Source: Rubrivirga sp. SAORIC476 (GTDB lineage: Bacteria; Bacteroidota; Rhodothermia; Rhodothermales; Rubricoccaceae). From it: 64,000 nt of DNA. This document shows positions 15,811 through 28,317 of this stretch, one piece after another. The position numbers and the translations under genes were made by a program. Position 1 is the first letter of the stretch. Each line of letters starts with the position of its first letter. The notes below the pieces were generated by a model. It was not told the DNA's origin. It searched no databases and saw nothing but the letters and a program-made list of their open reading frames with translations. The stretch covers positions 310,001 through 374,000 of the forward strand of contig NZ_MVOI01000006.1 of assembly GCF_002283555.1 (NCBI RefSeq), read 5' to 3'.

Positions 15811-17775
15811 ATGTCTGTTCGGTTACTCCCCGTCGCGTTTCTGCTGCTCGCACTCGCCATCCCGGCCTCGGCTCAGGCCTCGTTCACCGGACTGTACGTC
15901 CAGAGCTTCGACGACATCGGCGGGGCGCCGAACGCGGAGCTCCCTGAGGGCTGGCGTGTCCAGACGCTCCCCGGCATCCGCGCCCTCGGCGACTTCGCCG
16001 ACGCGAGCACCACGACGGACGCACACGGCGGCAACCTGTTCGGGCAGAGCGCGCCGACCGGCGCCATCAACTTCGGCTCGGGTCCGGAAGCGACCGCCAC
16101 GGAGCGCGCCATCGGCTTCGCGTCCAACGGCGACATCGGGACCGGTCTCCTCTACTTCCACTTCCGGGTAGACGTGTTCGGGTCCTTCGACGAGATCTGG
16201 TACGCGAAATCCGAGGAGACGTACCGCGGCGGCCAGGATGAGGCAGAGTCCCAGACGGAGGCGTTCTATTCGTACGACGGCAGCACGTGGTACGCCCTGT
16301 TCGGGCAGGGCCGGACGTCCGGAGGCGACCGGGATGGCTACGAGGACGCACCGGCGGCCGGGGGAAGCTCGGGCGCCGGCCGGGTCGACCTTCCGACGCC
16401 TCTCCAGCAGGGAGACGAACTCTATCTGGCCTTCCGCTACTCCGCCGCACCAGGGTGGAGCACGGCACAGGTCCCGGCCGAGGCCTTCGACGACTTCGTG
16501 ATCGGGACCTCGTTCTCGAGTCTGCGGCACATCTTCGTCGGCCGCGGCGAGCGCGTCTTTGGCGACGTGCCCGTCGGCGAGACGGCGGGGCCGCTGACCG
16601 TCGATTACAACCCCGTGGGATACTCCGGTGAAGACCCCGTCGTCGAGATCACCGGCCCGGCCGCCGCCGACTTCAGCGTGGAACTGAACGCCCCCTTCAA
16701 CAGGGCTGAGGTCTTCTTTACGCCGAGCGAGCCGGGCCTCCGTGAGGCCTCGCTTCGGTTCCGCATCGGGTCGATGGTCAGCCGTGAGGTGGCGCTCCGA
16801 GGAGGCAGCGGCGAGCCTGCCGGCGAGATCGTGGCGTCGGTCGAGCGCGTCGGGGACGACGCGCCCATTCCCGCGGGCGGCGGGCGGTACCGGTACCGCG
16901 TCCTCGCCGACATCGACGGCCCGGACGCCCGCGAGGTCGACTTCTGGTCAGACCTGCTCTTCCCCGATGGACGCGTCGTCGAGTTGCGCGAGCCAGAGAC
17001 CGTCACGCTCACGCCGGGCGAGACCCGGAGCGTCGCGGCGTCGCGGCTCATCCGTGCGCAGTGGCCGACCGGGACGTACACCCAGCGCTTCTACTGGGGC
17101 GCCTACCCCGACGGAGCTGAGGCGGAGGCGTCGCTGTCTATCGAGAAGGTGACCGGCGGCGAGATCGATGTGGCGGTCGAGCGCGTCGGAGACGACGTGC
17201 CGATTCCTGCGGAGGGTGGGCGGTACCGGTACCGCGTCCTCGCCAGCGTCGACGGCCCGGACGCCCGCGACGTCGACTTCTGGTCAGACCTTCTCCTCCC
17301 CGACGGCAGCGTCGTCACGCTGCGCGAGCCGGAGGCCGTTACGCTCGCGCCGGGCGAGACCTGGCGCGTCGGGGCGTCTCGCCTGATCCGGGGAGCGTGG
17401 CCGACCGGGACGTACACGCAGCGCTTCTACCTGGGCGCGTTCCCCGACGGGGTCGAGGCGCAGACGTCCCTGACGGTCGAGAAGGCGGGCGGCGCGCTGG
17501 CCGCGCGTGCGGCCTCCATCGGTGAGACCGAGGGGCCGAACCCGTTCCGGGACCGGACCGTCGTTCGCTTCGAAGAGGGGAGTGGCGGATTCGTCCGCGC
17601 CGAGCTGTTCGACACGGTCGGCCGCCGCATTCGGGTGCTGTACGAAGGTGCCGCGCCGGAGGGACGCCCGCTCGTCGTCACGGTCGACGGGAGCGACCTG
17701 CCCGCCGGCGTCTACATCGTCCGTCTCATCGGAGAGAGCGGCGTCGAGACACGGACCGTCGTCCGGGCGCGGTAG
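15811..17775 (+). CDS. secreted T9SS type A sorting-domain protein with two 112-residue repeats
   Basis: A 654-residue protein with a signal peptide (MSVRLLPVAFLLLALAIPAS). Residues ~30-230 form a jelly-roll-like region (YVQSFDDIGGAPNAELPEGW) similar to the start of many T9SS cargo proteins. A beta-rich choice-of-anchor-like stretch follows, then two adjacent 112-residue repeats (338-449 and 450-561, each beginning GEI and containing GGRYRYRVLA and WPTGTYTQRFY). The C-terminal ~80 residues are a sorting domain (GPNPFRDRTVVRF, LFDTVGRRIRVL, LPAGVYIVRLI). It is predicted to be exported by SecYEG and then SprA and anchored at or released from the surface. Ligand and activity are unknown. Confidence 0.9.
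   Translation: MSVRLLPVAFLLLALAIPASAQASFTGLYVQSFDDIGGAPNAELPEGWRVQTLPGIRALGDFADASTTTDAHGGNLFGQSAPTGAINFGSGPEATATERAIGFASNGDIGTGLLYFHFRVDVFGSFDEIWYAKSEETYRGGQDEAESQTEAFYSYDGSTWYALFGQGRTSGGDRDGYEDAPAAGGSSGAGRVDLPTPLQQGDELYLAFRYSAAPGWSTAQVPAEAFDDFVIGTSFSSLRHIFVGRGERVFGDVPVGETAGPLTVDYNPVGYSGEDPVVEITGPAAADFSVELNAPFNRAEVFFTPSEPGLREASLRFRIGSMVSREVALRGGSGEPAGEIVASVERVGDDAPIPAGGGRYRYRVLADIDGPDAREVDFWSDLLFPDGRVVELREPETVTLTPGETRSVAASRLIRAQWPTGTYTQRFYWGAYPDGAEAEASLSIEKVTGGEIDVAVERVGDDVPIPAEGGRYRYRVLASVDGPDARDVDFWSDLLLPDGSVVTLREPEAVTLAPGETWRVGASRLIRGAWPTGTYTQRFYLGAFPDGVEAQTSLTVEKAGGALAARAASIGETEGPNPFRDRTVVRFEEGSGGFVRAELFDTVGRRIRVLYEGAAPEGRPLVVTVDGSDLPAGVYIVRLIGESGVETRTVVRAR
16822..17493 (+). repeat. tandem 336-bp coding duplication
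   Basis: Two in-frame copies of 336 bp (16822-17157 and 17158-17493) encode the two 112-residue beta-domains of the T9SS cargo protein. Identity is high but not complete, so the duplication is recent or still exchanging. Confidence 0.85.
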
Positions 17776-19004: not shown

Positions 19005-21326
19005 CTAGTTCCAGACGATCTCTGCGCCGAACTGGTCGAAGAGGGCGCGCACGACCGGGTGGTCCTGGCGCATTTGCTTGAGCGTCTCGAACGGGTCGTC
19101 CGCGCGGACGGTTTCGGGCGTGTCGCGCGCCGACTCGACCCATCGCAGCGGCGGCACCTCGCTCCGCAGCACGTCCGACAGGACGTCCAGCAGCGCCGCC
19201 TCGTTGTTCGTCGCCACGGTCACCCCGAACGCGTCGTCCATGCCGATCTCGACCGCCCCGCGGGCCACGCGCACCGGCGCGCTGGACTGCAGGATGGCCC
19301 CCACGCGGACGCCCACGCGTTCGCGGACGGCGGCGATGACCCGCGGCCATGCCTCAGTGAGGCGAGCCAGTGCCGGCCCCAGCGGGTCGGCCGGGGCGCC
19401 AGGTGCCGGTCCCGACTGCCCGTCGCCCTGTGCAGGACTTTCGGTGCGTCCCAGCGCCGCCGGACCCGAGGCGCCGTCGCCGCCCGTCGGGCGCTTGAGC
19501 GCGGGGCCGCTGAAGACCGGTCGCCGCGGCCGCGGGGTCGCCGGGGCGGGCGCCGAGGCGGGCGGGGTCGGGGCCGGGCGGCGGGGGGCCGTCGGCTCGG
19601 GCAGCCCCCCGTCGTCCTCAGGTCCGAAGCGGGGCGGCGACGGAGCGTCGGAGTCGGGCGGGGGCGGCTGAGGCCGCGGGTCGCCGAGTGGCAGAGGCTC
19701 CGGGCGGCGGGGCGGCGGGGCGTACACCGCGGCTGGCTCGGCCGCCTGCGACGACGCCCGCGGATCCGGCGAGGTCGTGCGCGGCGCAGCCCTCCCCGCC
19801 TCGGGCGCGGGCTCGCCCCCCGGAGAGGCAATCGGCGTCGGCACCGGATCGACGGGCCCACGCACCGGATCGACGGGCCCACGCACCGGATCGACGGGCC
19901 CACGCACCGGATCGACGGAGCCGCGCACCGGATCGACGGGGTCGCGCACCTGATCAACGGGGCCGCGCACCTGATCAACGGGGCCGCGCACCTGATCCGA
20001 CGGCGTGGGGGCCGGTTCACTCGGCGTCCGCGGCTGTTCAACTGGCTCGGGAGCCGGCTCCGTCGGCTTGGGGAGGGCTGCAACCGGGTTTGGAGCCGGC
20101 AGCGTCGCCGTCGTGAGCGGCCCCTCCGGCAGCGTGCCGCCGCGCGCTGCCCGTTCCAGCGCGCCGAGGCGGTCCAGCAGGCGCCCGAGGTCGGCGGCGC
20201 GCTCCAGGCTCGCCATCTTGAGCAGCGCCAGCTCCAGCGTCAGGCGCGGCTGGCGGCTCTCGCGGAGGTCCGTGGCCGCGCCCTCGGCCAGCATGAGCAG
20301 GTGCAGCAGGTCGGTCTCGGCGTACGGCGCCGCGGCCTGGAGGTAGCGCTCCCGCGTCGCCTCGGTGCCCTCGATCAGGTCACCCGTGCCCGTCGAGCGC
20401 GCCACGAGCAGGTTGCGGAGGTGGTCCGCCAGCCCCAGCACGAACTCGTTCAGGTCGTGCCCGCTGCGGACGACGTGGTCCACCAGCGACAGCAGCGCGG
20501 CGCGGTCGGCCCGTTGCGCGCGGGCCGTGGTCTCGAAGTAGATGTCGGCGTCGACCACCCCGAGTGCTTCGCGGAGCGGCCCGATCTGCAGGTCGGCGCC
20601 GCAGAGGGAGACCGCCTGGTCGAACAGCGAGAGCGCGTCGCGGAGCGCGCCGTCGCCCTTGCGCGCGATCAGCACGAGGCTCTCGTCGTCGGCCGCGATG
20701 CCCTCGGCCGTGCAGATCTCCCGGAGGCGGTCCACGATCTCCGGCACCGCGATGCGCCGGAAGTCGAAGCGCTGCGTCCGGGACAGGATGGTGGGGAGCA
20801 CCTTGTGCGGCTCCGTGGTCGCGAAGATGAACAGCGCGTAGTCCGGCGGCTCCTCCAGCGTCTTCAGGAGCGCGTTGAACGCGCTCGCCGAGAGCATGTG
20901 GACCTCGTCGAGGATGTAGACCTTCTTCCGCGCCCCCTGCGGCGGCACGCGCACCGTGTCGCGCAACTCGCGGATGTCCTCGACCCGGTTGTTGGACGCC
21001 GCGTCGATCTCGATGATGTTGAGCGAACGGCCCTCCTCGAAGGCCGCGCACGAGTCGCACGTCCGGCACGGCTCGGCGGTCGGCCGCTCGCTCAGCGGCG
21101 TCTGACAGTTGACCGCCTTCGCGAGGATGCGCGCCGCCGTCGTCTTGCCGACGCCGCGCGGCCCGCTGAACAGGTACGCGTGGGCGAGCCGGTCCCGCGT
21201 GATCGCGTTGCGGAGCGTCTCGGCGACGTGCTCCTGCGCGACGAGGTCGTCGAAGGTCTGCGGCCGGTACTTCCGGGCGGTGACGGTAAAGCGGGCGCCC
21301 TGGGAGGGGCTGGTCGTGTCGGCCAT
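19005..21326 (-). CDS. dnaX: DNA polymerase III subunit gamma/tau
   Basis: A 773-residue clamp-loader ATPase. Walker A GPRGVGKT is at residues 55-62. The zinc cluster has C74, C87, C90 and C93. The Walker-B region VYILDEVHML and sensor FIFATTEPHKV are present. A helical domain III follows to about 370, then a Pro/Asp-rich linker and a C-terminal tau-like domain ending DQFGAEIVWN. Linker residues ~443-494 are eight copies of a seven-residue unit (DPVRGPV or close) encoded by 21-bp tandem repeats. No A-rich slippery site for gamma production is visible. A TATGTTG box at 21389-21395 may be the promoter -10. It is first in dnaX-ybaB-recR. Confidence 0.97.
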   Translation of the reverse strand: MADTTSPSQGARFTVTARKYRPQTFDDLVAQEHVAETLRNAITRDRLAHAYLFSGPRGVGKTTAARILAKAVNCQTPLSERPTAEPCRTCDSCAAFEEGRSLNIIEIDAASNNRVEDIRELRDTVRVPPQGARKKVYILDEVHMLSASAFNALLKTLEEPPDYALFIFATTEPHKVLPTILSRTQRFDFRRIAVPEIVDRLREICTAEGIAADDESLVLIARKGDGALRDALSLFDQAVSLCGADLQIGPLREALGVVDADIYFETTARAQRADRAALLSLVDHVVRSGHDLNEFVLGLADHLRNLLVARSTGTGDLIEGTEATRERYLQAAAPYAETDLLHLLMLAEGAATDLRESRQPRLTLELALLKMASLERAADLGRLLDRLGALERAARGGTLPEGPLTTATLPAPNPVAALPKPTEPAPEPVEQPRTPSEPAPTPSDQVRGPVDQVRGPVDQVRDPVDPVRGSVDPVRGPVDPVRGPVDPVRGPVDPVPTPIASPGGEPAPEAGRAAPRTTSPDPRASSQAAEPAAVYAPPPRRPEPLPLGDPRPQPPPPDSDAPSPPRFGPEDDGGLPEPTAPRRPAPTPPASAPAPATPRPRRPVFSGPALKRPTGGDGASGPAALGRTESPAQGDGQSGPAPGAPADPLGPALARLTEAWPRVIAAVRERVGVRVGAILQSSAPVRVARGAVEIGMDDAFGVTVATNNEAALLDVLSDVLRSEVPPLRWVESARDTPETVRADDPFETLKQMRQDHPVVRALFDQFGAEIVWN
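19842..19997. repeat. 21-bp tandem repeat inside dnaX
   Basis: There are eight near-identical 21-bp units (starts at 19842, 19863, 19884, 19905, 19926, 19947, 19968, 19989). The core reads CACCGGATCGACGGGCC on the plus strand, drifting to CACCTGATCAACGGGGC in the last units. It encodes eight DPVRGPV-type heptapeptides in the tau linker. Copy number is likely to vary between strains. Confidence 0.95.
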
Positions 21327-22125: not shown

Positions 22126-22515
22126 ATGTCCCCTCTCCACTCTGTCGCTCGGTTCGCCGTGGTGCTCGCGCTCGTCGCGAGCACGCAGGGGCTTCTGCTG
22201 GCGCAGTCGGCCTGGCTCGTCAACCAGGAGTGGATCGCCGAGACGCTTTGCGTCAACCCCGGCACCGACTGCGACGGCAAGTGCCAGCTGGCCGATCGGA
22301 TGGAGCACATGGGCCACGGGGAGCACTCGCACGACGACCCGGCAGCGCTGCTGGAGCTCGCGCTCTCGGTGCGCGCCCAGGTCGCCGAGGCGGTCGGGGT
22401 GCCGCTGCCAGATGCCGTCGACGCAGCCGACCTGGTCGCCCGGGACATCGCAGACACGGGGAGGGAGGCCTCCCAGGGCGTGTTCCATCCGCCGCGGGAG
22501 GCGGCCCACGCATAG
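22126..22515 (+). CDS. small exported Cys/His-rich protein at the head of the copper locus
   Basis: A 129-residue protein with a signal-type N-terminal helix (VARFAVVLALVASTQGLLLA) and the segment CVNPGTDCDGKCQLADRM, followed at once by HMGHGEHSHDD. This is a compact run of three Cys, several Met and four His that would suit soft-metal binding. I do not recognise a named family, although Bacteroidota genomes carry similar small proteins with a C..C.GKC pattern next to metal-transport genes. A TACGTTG box lies 17 nt upstream. It precedes MbnP by 246 nt. A metal-chaperone role is inferred from composition and location only. Confidence 0.75.
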   Translation: MSPLHSVARFAVVLALVASTQGLLLAQSAWLVNQEWIAETLCVNPGTDCDGKCQLADRMEHMGHGEHSHDDPAALLELALSVRAQVAEAVGVPLPDAVDAADLVARDIADTGREASQGVFHPPREAAHA

Positions 22516-22516
22516 C

Positions 22517-22683
22517 GACCGTCCTCGCGGACGGTCCCGGGGCGCTGCCTTCTAGCAGGCGGCACCCCTTCGTCTTCGTCGCGCACTGACGCTCGACGCC
22601 CGTGGTCCATGCTCTCCTCAGCCGGAGTCCGCGTGCGCAGGCCGTCCGCGCCGACGCGTCCCTCCGGTCTCGCACGAGACCGG
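22517..22683 (+). promoter_or_regulatory. structured leader with two perfect tetraloop hairpins upstream of MbnP
   Basis: Just after the upstream stop codon there is a perfect 8-bp stem with loop TCGC (22517-22536, arms GACCGTCC and GGACGGTC). A second perfect 8-bp stem with loop GCAC lies at 22664-22683 (arms CCGGTCTC and GAGACCGG), ~80 nt before the MbnP ATG. A weaker stem lies at about 22545. Neither is followed by a T-run, so a simple terminator is unlikely. An attenuator or RNA-processing element is possible. Confidence 0.45.
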
Positions 22684-22761
22684 CCGTCTCCCCGCAGGCC
22701 GCGACCGTGGCCTGTGCTGCATCCGCAGGCGCCCCGCGCCGCGGACCCTCCCGCAGTCCCC

Positions 22762-23634
22762 ATGACCTTCCGTTCCCTCGCGCCTACCGGCGCGCTCCTC
22801 GTCGCCCTGCTGGGCGCCCCCCTCACCGGCTGTGACTCCGGCGGCTCCTCGTCCGACCCGGCGATGCTCCGCCTCGACGTTGAGGCGATGGCGGGCGCCG
22901 ACGCCTTCCAGGCCGGGCAGCCCTTCACCGTCAACGGCACCACGGGCCAGCTCGACATCGCGCAGCTGTACCTCTCCGGGATCACGCTCCTCCACGAGGA
23001 CGGCCGCGAGATCTCGATCCTGGCCGACGAGCCGGTCACCGTTCGCGCCCAGGACGAGAACCAGACCGAGATCCAGCACTCCGTCTCCGAGCGCTACGTC
23101 CTGGTCGACGCCGACGCGGGCAGGACCGTGGCGACGCTCGGCGAGGTGCCCGCGGGCCGGTACACCGGCGTCCGCTTCCTGCTCGGCGTGGATGGGCTCG
23201 ACAACCGCGCCGCGATGGAGGACTTCCCGGCGGGCCACCCGCTCGCAGCCCAGGCTTCGTCCATGCACTGGAACTGGAACGCGGGCTACGTCTTCCTCCG
23301 CCTCGACGGCCTCCTCGACGTCGACGGCGACGGCGTGGTCGATCCCGCGACCGGCACCCCCGGCGACGCCGCCTCGGGCCAGTGGCGGCTCCACGTCGGC
23401 GGCTCGCCGAACGCACAGACCGTCACGCTCGACCAGGACTTCGAACTGATGGGCGGCGAGATGCAGGACCTCCACGTCCAACTCGATCTCGCCCGCCTCG
23501 TGCAGGGCATCGACTACACGGCCCCGGCCAACCGCTTCTGCATGACGGGCGGTTGCCAGGCCGTCGTGGATCAGGCCAAGGCCAACACGCAGGCCGCGTT
23601 CACGCTCCACGGCGTCCACGGCCACGACATGTAG
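22762..23634 (+). CDS. MbnP family copper-binding lipoprotein
   Basis: A 290-residue lipoprotein (lipobox LTGC, Cys24). It has the MbnP family core: an N-terminal DIAQLYLSGITLL strand, GRYTGVRFLLGVDG, and the hallmark SSMHWNWNAGYVFLRLDG with W170 and W172. It ends in a Cys pair (C260, C265) and a His-rich tail HGVHGHDM. In characterised MbnP proteins a tryptophan in this region is oxidised to kynurenine by MbnH, creating a copper site in the periplasm. Here the MbnH homologue starts 4 nt after the stop, strongly supporting a working pair. ATG 22762 is chosen because it starts the signal peptide; the upstream frame is not protein-like. Confidence 0.9.
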   Translation: MTFRSLAPTGALLVALLGAPLTGCDSGGSSSDPAMLRLDVEAMAGADAFQAGQPFTVNGTTGQLDIAQLYLSGITLLHEDGREISILADEPVTVRAQDENQTEIQHSVSERYVLVDADAGRTVATLGEVPAGRYTGVRFLLGVDGLDNRAAMEDFPAGHPLAAQASSMHWNWNAGYVFLRLDGLLDVDGDGVVDPATGTPGDAASGQWRLHVGGSPNAQTVTLDQDFELMGGEMQDLHVQLDLARLVQGIDYTAPANRFCMTGGCQAVVDQAKANTQAAFTLHGVHGHDM

Positions 23635-23638
23635 CCCG

Positions 23639-24652
23639 GTGCTCCGGCGCCGACTCGCTGCTCGTTTTCTGCTGGCGGCCGCGTTCGTCGTGACCGCCAG
23701 CGGGTGCGATACGTCCGGCCCCGAGGGACCGGCGACGGTCGAGGTGCGCGTGCCCGCGACGTTCGCGCCGCTTCCGGTGCCGCCGCAGAACCCGCTCCGC
23801 GCCGACCGTGTGGCGCTGGGCGAGCGGCTGTTCTTCGATCCCATCCTCTCGCGCGACCGCTCGGTCTCGTGCGGCTCGTGCCACTTCCCGGACCTCGCCT
23901 TCTCGGACGGTCGGACCCGGAGCGTCGGCGTCGAGGGGCGGACGGGGCCTCGGAATGCGCCGTCGCTGCTGAACGTGGCGTACCGCAAGAGCCTGTTCTG
24001 GGACGGCGGCGCGCTCTTCCTGGAGAGCCAGGCGCTCGTCCCGCTGGAGGACCCGCACGAGATGGATCTCGCACCCGAGGACGCGCTCGACCGGCTCCGA
24101 CGGCATCCCGACTACCCGGCCCTCTTCGCCGACGCCTTCGATGGCGAGGGGCCGAGCATCCAGACGCTGACCTACGCGCTCGCGGCGTACCAGCGCACGC
24201 TCGTCTCGGCGCCGACGGCCTTCGACCGTCACCTCGCGGGCGACACCACGGCGCTGGCGGCCGAGGCCCGGGCCGGGCTCGCGCTCTTCCAGACGCACTG
24301 CGCCTCGTGCCACGTCGGCGCGCACCTCACCTCGGACAGCTTCGAGAACAACGGGGCCGCCGTCACCGACGCCGATCCCGGTCGCGAGCGCATCACGTTC
24401 TCCGACGCCGACCGCGGCACGTTCCGCGTCCCGAGCCTCCGCGCCGTCGCGCGGACGGCGCCCTACTTCCACGATGGCCGCTTCCAGACGCTGGAGGCCG
24501 TCGTGGCCCATTACGACCGCGGCGGCGACGCCACGCCGGGCCAGAGCCCGCGCGTCCGTCCGCTCCGCCTCGCCCCGGCCGAGCGCGACGCCCTCGTCGC
24601 CTTCCTCCGCACGCTCGACGACGCACCGGCCCCGGTCGACCGCTCCTTCTGA
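23639..24652 (+). CDS. MbnH-like diheme cytochrome c peroxidase family protein
   Basis: A 337-residue exported protein from a GTG start 4 nt after the MbnP stop. The signal peptide ends in SGC (Cys23), so it is probably a lipoprotein. Two c-type heme motifs, CGSCH (78-82) and CASCH (221-225), sit in the MauG/bacterial CCP fold. Other family motifs are GERLFFDPILS, GPRNAPSLLNVAY, WDGGA and FRVPSLRAVA. MbnH enzymes use a bis-Fe(IV) state to turn a tryptophan of MbnP into kynurenine; a plain peroxidase role is the alternative, but operon linkage to MbnP favours MbnH. Cytochrome c maturation genes must be elsewhere. Confidence 0.9.
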   Translation: MLRRRLAARFLLAAAFVVTASGCDTSGPEGPATVEVRVPATFAPLPVPPQNPLRADRVALGERLFFDPILSRDRSVSCGSCHFPDLAFSDGRTRSVGVEGRTGPRNAPSLLNVAYRKSLFWDGGALFLESQALVPLEDPHEMDLAPEDALDRLRRHPDYPALFADAFDGEGPSIQTLTYALAAYQRTLVSAPTAFDRHLAGDTTALAAEARAGLALFQTHCASCHVGAHLTSDSFENNGAAVTDADPGRERITFSDADRGTFRVPSLRAVARTAPYFHDGRFQTLEAVVAHYDRGGDATPGQSPRVRPLRLAPAERDALVAFLRTLDDAPAPVDRSF

Positions 24653-24665
24653 TCGAACTGAACTC

Positions 24666-25487
24666 ATGAACCGACTCTTCCTCTTCGTCGCCCTGGTGGG
24701 GCTCGCCGGGTGCGTGCCCGACGGGCTCACCGACTTCGACTTCCAGGGACTCCAGCCCGACCCCCCCGCCGACGAACTGACCGGCGAGGTCGTCGTCGGG
24801 ACGGCCCGCGACGCCGGGTTGACGGTCGAGTTGACCGCGATGCGCGGCGGCCCGCACCTCGGCTACGTCCGCCTCGGGCTGGCCGTCACGCGGGGCGGCA
24901 CAGCTGTGACCGACGCGACCGTCTCGCTCTCCGCGACGGCCGACGGTGGCCCCGCGGCGGGCGTCGCGCTCCCGGTCGAGGACCCCGCGCGCGACGCGGA
25001 CGGGGTCTACCGCGGCGCCGCATTCCTGCTGGCGCCCGACACCACGGCCCGGCAGTTCACGCTCACGGCCACCATCGCGTCGGGCGGGACGACCGCCGAG
25101 GTCGCGTTCCCCATTGAGGCGCGCAACGACCTGTGGATGCAGGCCGCTGGCGTGGACGTGCTGGTCTCGTGGGTCGATCCGCTCCGGCCGGTCGTGGGCG
25201 AGAACCGCTACGTGGTGGCGGCGCACCGATGGACCGGGACCGCGTTCGAGCCCGTCGACGGCGCGACCGTCCGGCTCTATCCGTACATGGACATGGGCGG
25301 CGGCGACGGCCACTCGACCCCGCACGGCGCCCCGGAGGCGCTCGGCGACGGGCGCTACGGCTGGGACGTGGACTTCATCATGTCGGGCGGGTGGGAGATG
25401 ACGGTCACGCTCGCGCCTCCGGGTGAGGCCGACCGCACCGCCGCGTTCGTCGGCTACACCGTGTACGAGCCCGAGGTGGAGGCATGA
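24666..25487 (+). CDS. lipoprotein with YtkA/FixH-like domain
   Basis: A 273-residue lipoprotein (MNRLFLFVALVGLAGC). The C-terminal ~110 residues carry a YtkA/FixH-like immunoglobulin fold: VRLYPYMDMGGGDGHSTPHG followed by GDGRYGWDVDFIMSGGWEM. The Met/His cluster sits where this family keeps its PxMPxMxH-type metal site. The N-terminal half is a second beta-domain of similar character. It is 13 nt downstream of the MbnH gene and overlaps the receptor gene by ATGA. A periplasmic or outer-membrane copper relay between MbnP/MbnH and the receptor is inferred from location and residues. Confidence 0.8.
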   Translation: MNRLFLFVALVGLAGCVPDGLTDFDFQGLQPDPPADELTGEVVVGTARDAGLTVELTAMRGGPHLGYVRLGLAVTRGGTAVTDATVSLSATADGGPAAGVALPVEDPARDADGVYRGAAFLLAPDTTARQFTLTATIASGGTTAEVAFPIEARNDLWMQAAGVDVLVSWVDPLRPVVGENRYVVAAHRWTGTAFEPVDGATVRLYPYMDMGGGDGHSTPHGAPEALGDGRYGWDVDFIMSGGWEMTVTLAPPGEADRTAAFVGYTVYEPEVEA

Positions 25488-27712
25488 ACCGACTTCTCTC
25501 TACTCTCCTCATCGTGCTGCTGGCGGCGACCGCCGCCAGCGCCCAGGGCGCCATCGAGGGCGTCGTGCTCGACGCCGAGACCGAGGCGCCCGTCGTCGGC
25601 GCGACCGTCCGCGTGGACGGGACCGGGCGCGGCGTCGCGGCCGACCTCGACGGCCAGTTCTCGATCGCGCTCCAGGGCGGCGACCACTGGCTCGTCGTCT
25701 CGGCGGTCGGCTACGCTCCCGTGCGGCTCCACGCCCACGACGGGCATCGCCTGACGGTCCGCCTGCGTCCCGCGGCGACGGCGTTCGACGCCGTGACCGT
25801 CGAGGGCGAGCGGGCCGTCGCGGGCGCGCCCTCCGCCCCGACCAAGACGCCCGCCACGACCGAGGATCTGCTCGCGCGCCTGCCGGGCGTGCGGATGATC
25901 CAGCGGGCCAACTTCGCCGCCGAGCCTGTCGTGCGCGGCTACCAGGGCGGCCAGATCTCGCTGACCATCGACGGGATGCCGGTCTATGGTGCGTGCGTCG
26001 ACAAGATGGATCCGGCGTCGAGCTACGTCGAGCCCGAGAACCTGGCGGCCGTCGAGGTCTCGAAGGGCGCCTCCGACCTGGGCCGCGGCTCCCAGATCGG
26101 CGGGGCCGTGGATCTCGTGACGGAGCGGCCCCGGTTCGGCGTGCCGCTCGCCGCTGAGGCCGAGGTGGGCGTCGAGTCGAACGGCCTCGCGCGCCGCGTC
26201 CGGGGCGCCGCGAACTGGAGTGCCGGCCGACTGGCGGCCCGCGTGAGCGGGTCGTACCGCGGCTCCGGCGACTACGCGCCCGGCGGCGGGGACGCCATCG
26301 AGACCTCGGGCTACGAGAAGCGCAACCTCGCCGCCGCCGCGACGCTGCGGTTGGCCGAGGGCCACGAACTGACGGCGCAACTCGTCACCGACGACGCGTG
26401 GCTGATCGGCTACCCGGCGCTCCTCATGGATGCGGTGCTCGCGCAGGCGCGCATCGGCAGCCTCGCCTACGAGGGGGACGCGCCCGGCCTGGACCGCCTC
26501 GACGCCCGCCTCTATCGCAACCGCGTCGACCACACCATGGACGACCGGTACCGCAACGTGCTCGCGCGTGAGGTCATGCGGGGCATGTTCATGCCGATGG
26601 GCGGGTACTCCGACGTGCTCGGCGGCCGCGTCGAGGCGGGGCGGACCGTCGCGGGCACCGGGCTCGCGCTCTCGGCCGACGTGCACCGGCTCCGCCAGTT
26701 CGGCGACATGACGATGTACAGCCTCTTCCCCGGCATCCGCGACATGGTGCTGCTCAACGTGGGCGACGTGGAGGCGCTCAACGCCGGGCTCACGCTGGAG
26801 GCGCGCCGGCCGCTGACGGACCGGCTCACGGTCTCCGCCTCGGGCCGCCTCGATGCGACCTCCCGCGACGTGGGACGCGAGGCGATGCGCCAGCTGTTCG
26901 AGCGTCGCACGGGCGACCCGGACGTGAGCCGCCGGATGCTCATCCCGAGCGTCAACGCGACGGCCAGCTACGCGCTCTCGCCCCGGACGCACCTCCGCCT
27001 CACCCTCGCCGACGCGGGCCGTCTGCCGACCGTCGTCGAGCAGTACGGCCACTACGTCTACAACTACGTCGACGGCTACTTCTACACCGGCGACCCGGAC
27101 CTGAAGCCCGAGCGGAGCCGTCAGGTCGAACTCGGCGTGGCGCACGCGGGCGGGCGCGTGGCCGTCGAGGCCGCGGTCTATGCCCACCAGCTCTCCGACC
27201 TCGTCATCGGGCTGGCCGACAACGAGGTCGTCGGTGGGCTGGCGGGCTCGACGTATCGCTTCCGGCTTTACGACAACGCGGATCGCGGCTGGATGGCGGG
27301 CGGCGAGGTCAGCGCGCTCGCTCGCCTCGGTGCCGGACTGGAGGCCGTCGCGAGCGTGTCGGCGGCCTACGGCCAGAACCTGACGTTCGACGAGCCGCTC
27401 CCGATGATCCCGCCGGTCGGCGGCGTCGCCGCGCTGCGGTACGACCGCGGCGGGGTGTTCGGGGAGGTCGAAAGCCGGTGGGCGCTCGCGCAGGACCGCG
27501 TGGCCCGCTTCACCTACGCCGAGCGGCCGACGGACGGCTTCGCCGTGTTCGCCGTCCGCGGCGGCTGGCGTCCCGACGGAGTCGCCTCCGGACTTCGTCT
27601 CCAGGCCGGTGTCGAGAACGTGCTCGACACGTTCTACCAGGAGCACCTCGCCATCTCCGACCTCGCCGCGCGCGGCCGGAGCGTCTACCTCTCGGTCGGC
27701 TTCGACCTGTGA
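25484..27712 (+). CDS. TonB-dependent receptor with OprC/NosA-type copper site
   Basis: A 742-residue outer-membrane receptor with a signal peptide, a carboxypeptidase-regulatory-like domain (residues ~23-100), a plug (~120-215; RGYQGGQISLTIDGMPVYGA) and a 22-strand-type barrel ending in the aromatic C-terminal strand VYLSVGFDL. The plug has CVDKM (C171, M175) and the barrel has HTM (H350, M352). These are the CxxxM and HxM pairs that bind copper in Pseudomonas OprC, and the 179-residue spacing is close to that in OprC. Met-rich loops (EVMRGMFMPMGG, GDMTMYSLF) add soft ligands. It is translationally coupled (ATGA) to the preceding lipoprotein. TonB-energised copper import is the likely job. 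Confidence 0.93.
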   Translation: MNRLLSTLLIVLLAATAASAQGAIEGVVLDAETEAPVVGATVRVDGTGRGVAADLDGQFSIALQGGDHWLVVSAVGYAPVRLHAHDGHRLTVRLRPAATAFDAVTVEGERAVAGAPSAPTKTPATTEDLLARLPGVRMIQRANFAAEPVVRGYQGGQISLTIDGMPVYGACVDKMDPASSYVEPENLAAVEVSKGASDLGRGSQIGGAVDLVTERPRFGVPLAAEAEVGVESNGLARRVRGAANWSAGRLAARVSGSYRGSGDYAPGGGDAIETSGYEKRNLAAAATLRLAEGHELTAQLVTDDAWLIGYPALLMDAVLAQARIGSLAYEGDAPGLDRLDARLYRNRVDHTMDDRYRNVLAREVMRGMFMPMGGYSDVLGGRVEAGRTVAGTGLALSADVHRLRQFGDMTMYSLFPGIRDMVLLNVGDVEALNAGLTLEARRPLTDRLTVSASGRLDATSRDVGREAMRQLFERRTGDPDVSRRMLIPSVNATASYALSPRTHLRLTLADAGRLPTVVEQYGHYVYNYVDGYFYTGDPDLKPERSRQVELGVAHAGGRVAVEAAVYAHQLSDLVIGLADNEVVGGLAGSTYRFRLYDNADRGWMAGGEVSALARLGAGLEAVASVSAAYGQNLTFDEPLPMIPPVGGVAALRYDRGGVFGEVESRWALAQDRVARFTYAERPTDGFAVFAVRGGWRPDGVASGLRLQAGVENVLDTFYQEHLAISDLAARGRSVYLSVGFDL

Positions 27713-27723
27713 CCCCTCCCGCC

Positions 27724-28317
27724 ATGCCCCGACTCCTCGGTCTTCTCCTCGTGACGCTCGCCGCCAGCGGCGTGTCGGCCCAGCACGTCCACGACGCCCC
27801 ACCGGCCGACTCCGTGTCGACCTACCTCGCGACGGGCCTCCGCGTCGACGAGGCGGCCCCGCCGCCGGGCAGCGCGCTCGGTCGGGCCGGGCTCCGCTAC
27901 GGCGACGGCGGCTACGTGTCGGTCGTCTACGGGCGGCCGTTCGTGCGCGGGCGCCAGGTGCTCGGCGGGCTCGTCGGGTACGGCATGGTCTGGGCCGCGG
28001 GCGCGCACCGGGCGACCGAGCTCTGGACGACGGTCCCGCTCGTGATCGGCGGGACGCGCGTCGAGCCGGGCGCCTACAGCCTGTTCGCCACGCCGCGGCC
28101 CGACCGCTGGACGCTCCACGTCAACCGCCGCCTCGGCATGCACCTCGCCGACGAGTACGACCCGGCCGACGACCTCGTCACGGTCGACGTATCGCCGGAG
28201 GCGCTCGACACCCCGGTCGAGGGCCTCACGTGGGCCTTCGCCACCGACGGCTCGGCGCTCACGCTCGCCTGGGACCGCGTCCGCGTCTCTCTGCCTCTCG
28301 CCCGCGCCGACCGGTAG
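27724..28317 (+). CDS. DUF2911 exported protein
   Basis: A 197-residue protein with a signal peptide (MPRLLGLLLVTLAASGVSAQ) followed by HVHD. The body has the DUF2911 core: VSVVYGRPFVRGRQVLGGL, VWAAGAHRATELWT and VEPGAYSLFATP, ending TLAWDRVRVSLPL. DUF2911 proteins are periplasmic beta-sandwich proteins of unknown function, common in Bacteroidota. It is 11 nt after the receptor gene, closing the copper locus, so a role linked to metal handling is possible. Confidence 0.88.
   Translation: MPRLLGLLLVTLAASGVSAQHVHDAPPADSVSTYLATGLRVDEAAPPPGSALGRAGLRYGDGGYVSVVYGRPFVRGRQVLGGLVGYGMVWAAGAHRATELWTTVPLVIGGTRVEPGAYSLFATPRPDRWTLHVNRRLGMHLADEYDPADDLVTVDVSPEALDTPVEGLTWAFATDGSALTLAWDRVRVSLPLARADR

Follow-up and report, generated by a model that had tools for sequence, protein, structure and literature searches.

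OprC and NosA are TonB-dependent ionic copper receptors of Proteobacteria, and OprC holds copper through Cys143, Met147, His323 and Met325 (PMC8610252). In Bizionia argentinensis (Flavobacteriia), one report notes the CxxxM-HxM site in an OprC-like receptor and proposes copper uptake (PMC11213822). Conservation of the MbnP-MbnH pair extends well outside the methanobactin producers, with isolated pairs beside TonB receptors, as Kenney and colleagues stated in 2013 (PMC3621798). Methanotrophs without detected methanobactin operons carry the kynurenine-copper proteins CorA and MopE with di-heme partners (PMC3912023). In Bacillus, YtkA/CtaK domains have been implicated, along with Sco, in assembly of the CuA centre (PMC13344008). 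Here we describe a six-gene cluster of Rubrivirga sp. SAORIC476 in which relatives of OprC, of MbnP-MbnH and of the YtkA proteins stand together. It lies within NZ_MVOI01000006.1, positions 310,001 to 374,000 of the forward strand; this whole stretch of 64,000 nucleotides is called the window, and gene coordinates count from its start. We demonstrate the gene content of the cluster, the conservation of its residues, the fold of its MbnP and its linkage across families, and we propose, with a probability of about 0.72, that it is an outer-membrane copper-acquisition cluster.

The best relatives of the receptor in the PDB were all OprC (E 1.2e-31, aligned over residues 92-728), and C171, M175, H350 and M352 aligned with all four OprC copper ligands. 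We compared 80 related receptor loci; Rhodothermales, Balneolaceae, Pontibacter, Chitinophagaceae, Flavobacteriales, Bacteroidales and some few neighbouring phyla are among the names in their record titles. The four ligand residues were found in 79, and the remaining receptor is truncated. This conservation is, in our assessment, the single strongest argument for copper, and it suggests that the receptor would bind ionic copper at the CxxxM-HxM site and import it. The receptor shares this site, and similarity over most of its length, with OprC and NosA; it differs from them in an N-terminal carboxypeptidase-regulatory-like domain, in a score below the cut-off of the copper-receptor equivalog TIGR01778 (154 of 472 bits), and in having a YtkA lipoprotein and a small Cys3 protein as companions. 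Its nearest named relative is from a Rubrivirga metagenome-assembled genome (82% identity). As for the Bizionia receptor, the accessible part of PMC11213822 mentions neither MbnP nor YtkA and gives no such cassette.

Two other ligands were considered for this receptor. It might import chelated copper, from a foreign chalkophore or a simple organic complex: CrtA, another TonB receptor, takes up Cu(II) in chelated form (PMC12914433), and isolated MbnP-MbnH pairs elsewhere adjoin MbnT-like receptors (PMC3621798). However, the four ionic-copper ligands of OprC are present in every complete relative and the closest solved relative is OprC, so that we regard this as improbable. The heme/hemoglobin receptor profile TIGR01785 also scored on the receptor, with 135 bits, near the score of the copper profile, as would be expected of a receptor for heme or for a metal other than copper, with the MauG-like enzyme acting on a protein unrelated to copper. 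Against this, the receptor has its four copper ligands, and the YtkA domain, the MbnP fold and the neighbours of SCO1 and Nos/cbb3 type likewise point to copper; such a function appears very improbable.

The genes around the receptor in the same 80 loci defined the conserved part of the cluster. Of these, 78 had a YtkA gene, which usually stood immediately before the receptor gene, and 54 had the small protein, whereas MbnP and MbnH occurred together in only 10; the pair was counted only where both genes were present, some of the MbnP labels at loci that lack MbnH being probable chance frames. These counts indicate that the conserved core consists of the small protein, the YtkA lipoprotein and the CxxxM-HxM receptor, and that MbnP-MbnH is a repeated add-on in some lineages. 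An earlier, sequence-only reading of this DNA had instead built the locus on MbnP-MbnH and an OprC-like receptor, and had proposed a full outer-membrane-to-periplasm copper relay. The uptake role in that relay is well supported by the conserved ligands and the repeated linkage, but the pair does not belong to the core.

The YtkA-domain lipoprotein scored 43.5 bits with PF13115 (cut-off 25.9), and its profile matched the solved copper resistance protein 9ll2 (E 7e-5). M209, H217, M240 and W244 were invariant. It shares a YtkA domain on a lipoprotein with the YtkA/CtaK copper assembly proteins; unlike them, it is larger (about 260-310 amino acids), is tied to an outer-membrane receptor and occurs in Gram-negative hosts.

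The small protein had no match in Pfam, NCBIfam or PDB searches. It consists of an N-terminal helix, a C42-x6-C49-x-G-x-C53 motif, a His/Met-rich stretch (residues 59-69) and a C-terminal FHPP motif; the structure model was confident for the helix (residues 3-32) and of low confidence for the rest. In an alignment of 39 homologues, C42, C49, G51 and C53 were invariant, and P122 and P123, the two prolines of FHPP, nearly so. The protein occurred in 121 of 296 sampled Bacteroidota genomes. In genomes that lack MbnP, it was followed by a large same-strand gene of TonB-receptor type at all 20 sampled loci, and 13 of the 19 alignable receptors had the OprC ligands; of the six that lacked them, most shared a different plug motif. 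The small protein thus accompanies TonB receptors, most of them of the copper type, and is probably a metal relay. At five loci, it preceded a second TonB receptor subfamily with the plug motif DG[IL]P[IL]R...G.[FY]NHN and without OprC ligands. Two copies of the small protein lay within about 2-4 kilobases (kb) at four other loci, and in two of these, one copy stood before YtkA-receptor and the other before MbnP-MbnH. More tentatively, and at somewhat less than even odds, the small protein (C-x6-C-x-G-x-C, C-terminal HPP) may represent a new metal relay family dedicated to the TonB-dependent copper receptors of Bacteroidota; with the YtkA lipoprotein it would make up a so far undescribed machine for copper uptake at the outer membrane, extended in some lineages by a kynurenine-based copper site.

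MbnP and MbnH of the cluster were compared with the characterised pair of Methylosinus trichosporium. The characterised MbnP, according to a 2021 PNAS study, reportedly holds Cu(I) by one His, one Met and a kynurenine close by, which MbnH is said to form from the first Trp. The Rubrivirga MbnP scored 107 bits with PF20243 (Pfam cut-off 27), and its model (mean predicted local distance difference test score 88) matched Methylosinus MbnP 7l6g with Z 17.7 over 220 residues at 3.2 Å; the next match had Z 5.2. The MHWNWN motif recognised in the sequence-only reading occupies residues 168-173, and Met168, Trp170, Trp172 and His211 stand at positions aligned with the known MbnP. Among the MbnP homologues, the first Trp of WxW (Trp170) was kept in 80 of 81, the downstream His (His211) in all 80 scored, and a Met two residues ahead of the Trp in 63 of 81. 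At six loci, the second Trp was replaced (for example MEWPM) and the first kept alone, from which the second seems dispensable. MbnH gave 186 bits with CCP_MauG and carries Trp121 as well as the two CxxCH heme sites expected from that reading, at residues 78 and 221; its Y292 aligned with the axial Tyr294 of MauG. Since the site residues are kept in MbnP, and two CxxCH sites and a MauG-type Tyr in MbnH, formation of kynurenine at Trp170 is likely.

Gene adjacency, the MbnP fold, the aligned WxW, Met and His residues and a MauG-type di-heme enzyme are thus common to the Rubrivirga and Methylosinus pairs. In contrast, the Rubrivirga MbnP is only about 20-24% identical to 7l6g and lacks the four-Cys pattern, having besides the lipobox Cys only C260 and C265; both MbnP and MbnH are predicted lipoproteins, the partner receptor is OprC-like, and no MbnB was found. 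MbnP also missed the equivalog TIGR04052 (four-Cys, WxW; 64.9 of 140 bits) and MbnH missed TIGR04039 (232 of 363 bits). Because MbnP, MbnH and the copper receptor do not reach these stricter NCBI cut-offs, we class them as divergent members of their families. Acidic residues after the lipobox Cys serve as a lipoprotein export signal (PMC5080379). Such a stretch was suggestive in some MbnP and YtkA proteins (for example CSSDDD), and MbnH was similarly acidic; the window proteins (CDSGGSSS, CVPDGLTD) gave no clear match to the signal.

PF20243 was present in 78 of the 296 Bacteroidota genomes. In 81 mapped MbnP loci, MbnH was alongside in 80 and the small protein in 36. Fifteen loci, from Rhodothermia as well as other Bacteroidota, had a CxxxM receptor near MbnP, in every case encoded on the same strand and preceded by a YtkA gene; six of the ten receptor-locus contigs with the pair recur in this set. 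At the remaining 66 MbnP loci, some of them on contigs that end early, no CxxxM receptor stood within about 8 kb, and 70 of the 80 receptor loci lacked the pair. These absences are consistent with two independent copper modules, clustered only through a common copper response, the pair serving storage, protection or oxidative chemistry and not a relay from the receptor. Yet the modules interleave on one strand in several families, with the recurring order small-MbnP-MbnH-YtkA-receptor in Rhodothermia and small-YtkA-receptor-(small)-MbnP-MbnH in other Bacteroidota, and MbnP and the YtkA lipoprotein were at most 5 kb apart in 14 of the 23 genomes that have both. Separate modules are therefore unlikely in our judgement. 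Fisher tests of co-occurrence, uncorrected for relatedness, gave p 4e-12 for MbnP and the small protein, 2e-6 for MbnP and YtkA, and 0.08 for the small protein and YtkA; several genera are over-represented in this sample, and the adjacency counts outweigh these tests. The search for the same six-gene order, which the earlier reading had suggested, did find it, but only in close relatives among Rubricoccaceae, at one locus in full and at another up to the contig end.

The sequence-only reading had further described the locus as independent of methanobactin. MbnB (TIGR04159) had no match in the Rubrivirga genome, which is 97.5% complete (MbnC was not searched), and this agrees with the claim; MbnP-MbnH outside methanobactin operons, pairs beside TonB receptors included, has, however, been known since at least 2013 (PMC3621798). 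With CorA/CorB and MopE/SACCP of methanotrophs, in which the copper protein is co-transcribed with a di-heme peroxidase-like protein, the Rubrivirga locus would share a kynurenine-copper protein and the lack of a detected methanobactin operon (PMC3912023, PMC3621798). CorA and MopE hold copper by two His and Kyn, in contrast to the His and Met of MbnP. No relation of CorA or MopE to the window MbnP appeared among the matches listed (sequence search at E 0.1, and fold searches), which does not exclude one.

Taken as a pathway, outer-membrane copper acquisition by this cluster would begin with import by the receptor. Conserved Met/His and Cys residues of the YtkA lipoprotein and of the anchored Cys3/His/Met protein would bind the metal, and the two proteins would pass it on beside the receptor, as the invariance of these residues and the fixed linkage suggest. 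By homology to the characterised pair, Trp170 of MbnP would be oxidised by MbnH, and the resulting kynurenine, together with Met168 and His211, would form a Cu(I) site at which copper is captured or buffered. The copper would most likely go to the CuA centre of the cytochrome c oxidase, and the cluster most likely serves to supply respiratory copper enzymes. This destination is suggested by the implicated role of YtkA domains with Sco in Bacillus, by an SCO1 gene directly after the cluster in two Rubricoccaceae relatives, which points to delivery to cytochrome oxidase, and by a COX2 and an SCO gene side by side in the Rubrivirga genome, away from the cluster. Among the genes that adjoin the receptor cassette are NosD/ABC-type, COX1/FixO, cupredoxin and SCO1 genes.

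Several observations weigh against this interpretation. The MbnP-MbnH pair is dispensable for the receptor, as its rarity in receptor loci indicates. The small protein may not be copper-specific, because at 6 of the 19 loci it precedes the second receptor type without OprC ligands. About one-fifth of MbnP proteins lack the Met. The homology to characterised MbnP, MbnH and OprC is distant, below the NCBI equivalog cut-offs. Finally, gene 1 may not be co-transcribed with the rest of the cluster, since it lies 246 bases from the MbnP gene, with a strong hairpin in between (-37.2 kcal/mol over 60 bases); this hairpin has no T-run and for that reason was not listed by the terminator scan.

The coordinates of the cluster are given in Table 1. 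All six same-strand genes of the sequence-only reading (22126-28317) were recovered, and Pfam names five of them, which also bears out its YtkA-type lipoprotein, TonB receptor and DUF2911 protein. The starts of MbnP and of the YtkA lipoprotein (an ATG) are refined positions, and three products have a lipobox Cys. Genes 2-6 are almost contiguous, with gaps of 4-13 bases (4 between MbnP and MbnH) and one overlap of 4 bases.

Table 1. Genes of the cluster, with coordinates in the window
Feature	Coordinates	Strand	Remarks
Small Cys3/His/Met protein, membrane-anchored	22126..22515	+	129 amino acids; no family match
MbnP, predicted lipoprotein (C24)	22762..23634	+	290 amino acids; PF20243
MbnH, MauG-like di-heme enzyme, predicted lipoprotein (C23)	23639..24652	+	337 amino acids; CCP_MauG
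Lipoprotein with C-terminal YtkA (CtaK-type) domain, lipobox C17	24666..25487	+	PF13115
OprC-like TonB-dependent receptor	25484..27712	+	OprC match; plug and barrel in Pfam
Secreted DUF2911 protein, lineage-specific cluster member	27724..28317	+	PF11138, 120 bits

The DUF2911 gene was found at this place in close relatives only. Just past the stop codon of the small protein, positions 22517-22536 form a perfect 8-base-pair GC-rich hairpin, GACCGTCC-TCGC-GGACGGTC, without a T-run. The flanks are ordinary, with dnaX and an RDD protein upstream and a class 3 lipase and thymidine kinase downstream, and no further copper gene was recognised among the neighbours examined, so that the cluster is isolated. 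Elsewhere in the window, a 21-base tandem array of 7.7 copies (19841-20003) inside dnaX encodes a DPVRGPV-type repeat in the predicted linker of the tau subunit, and two tandem 336-base copies matching at 84% (16821-17485) form an apparent internal duplication.

Copper entry through the outer membrane of Gram-negative bacteria is poorly known beyond a few Proteobacteria. The present analysis delineates a copper cassette that recurs in much of Bacteroidota, cultured strains included, and is open to testing, and it links kynurenine-copper chemistry to an OprC-type receptor. It also assigns to the cassette a small protein family that had not been annotated: the other parts of the cluster are relatives of known copper proteins, whereas the small Cys-rich protein, which recurs with such receptors across Bacteroidota, has had no family description yet.

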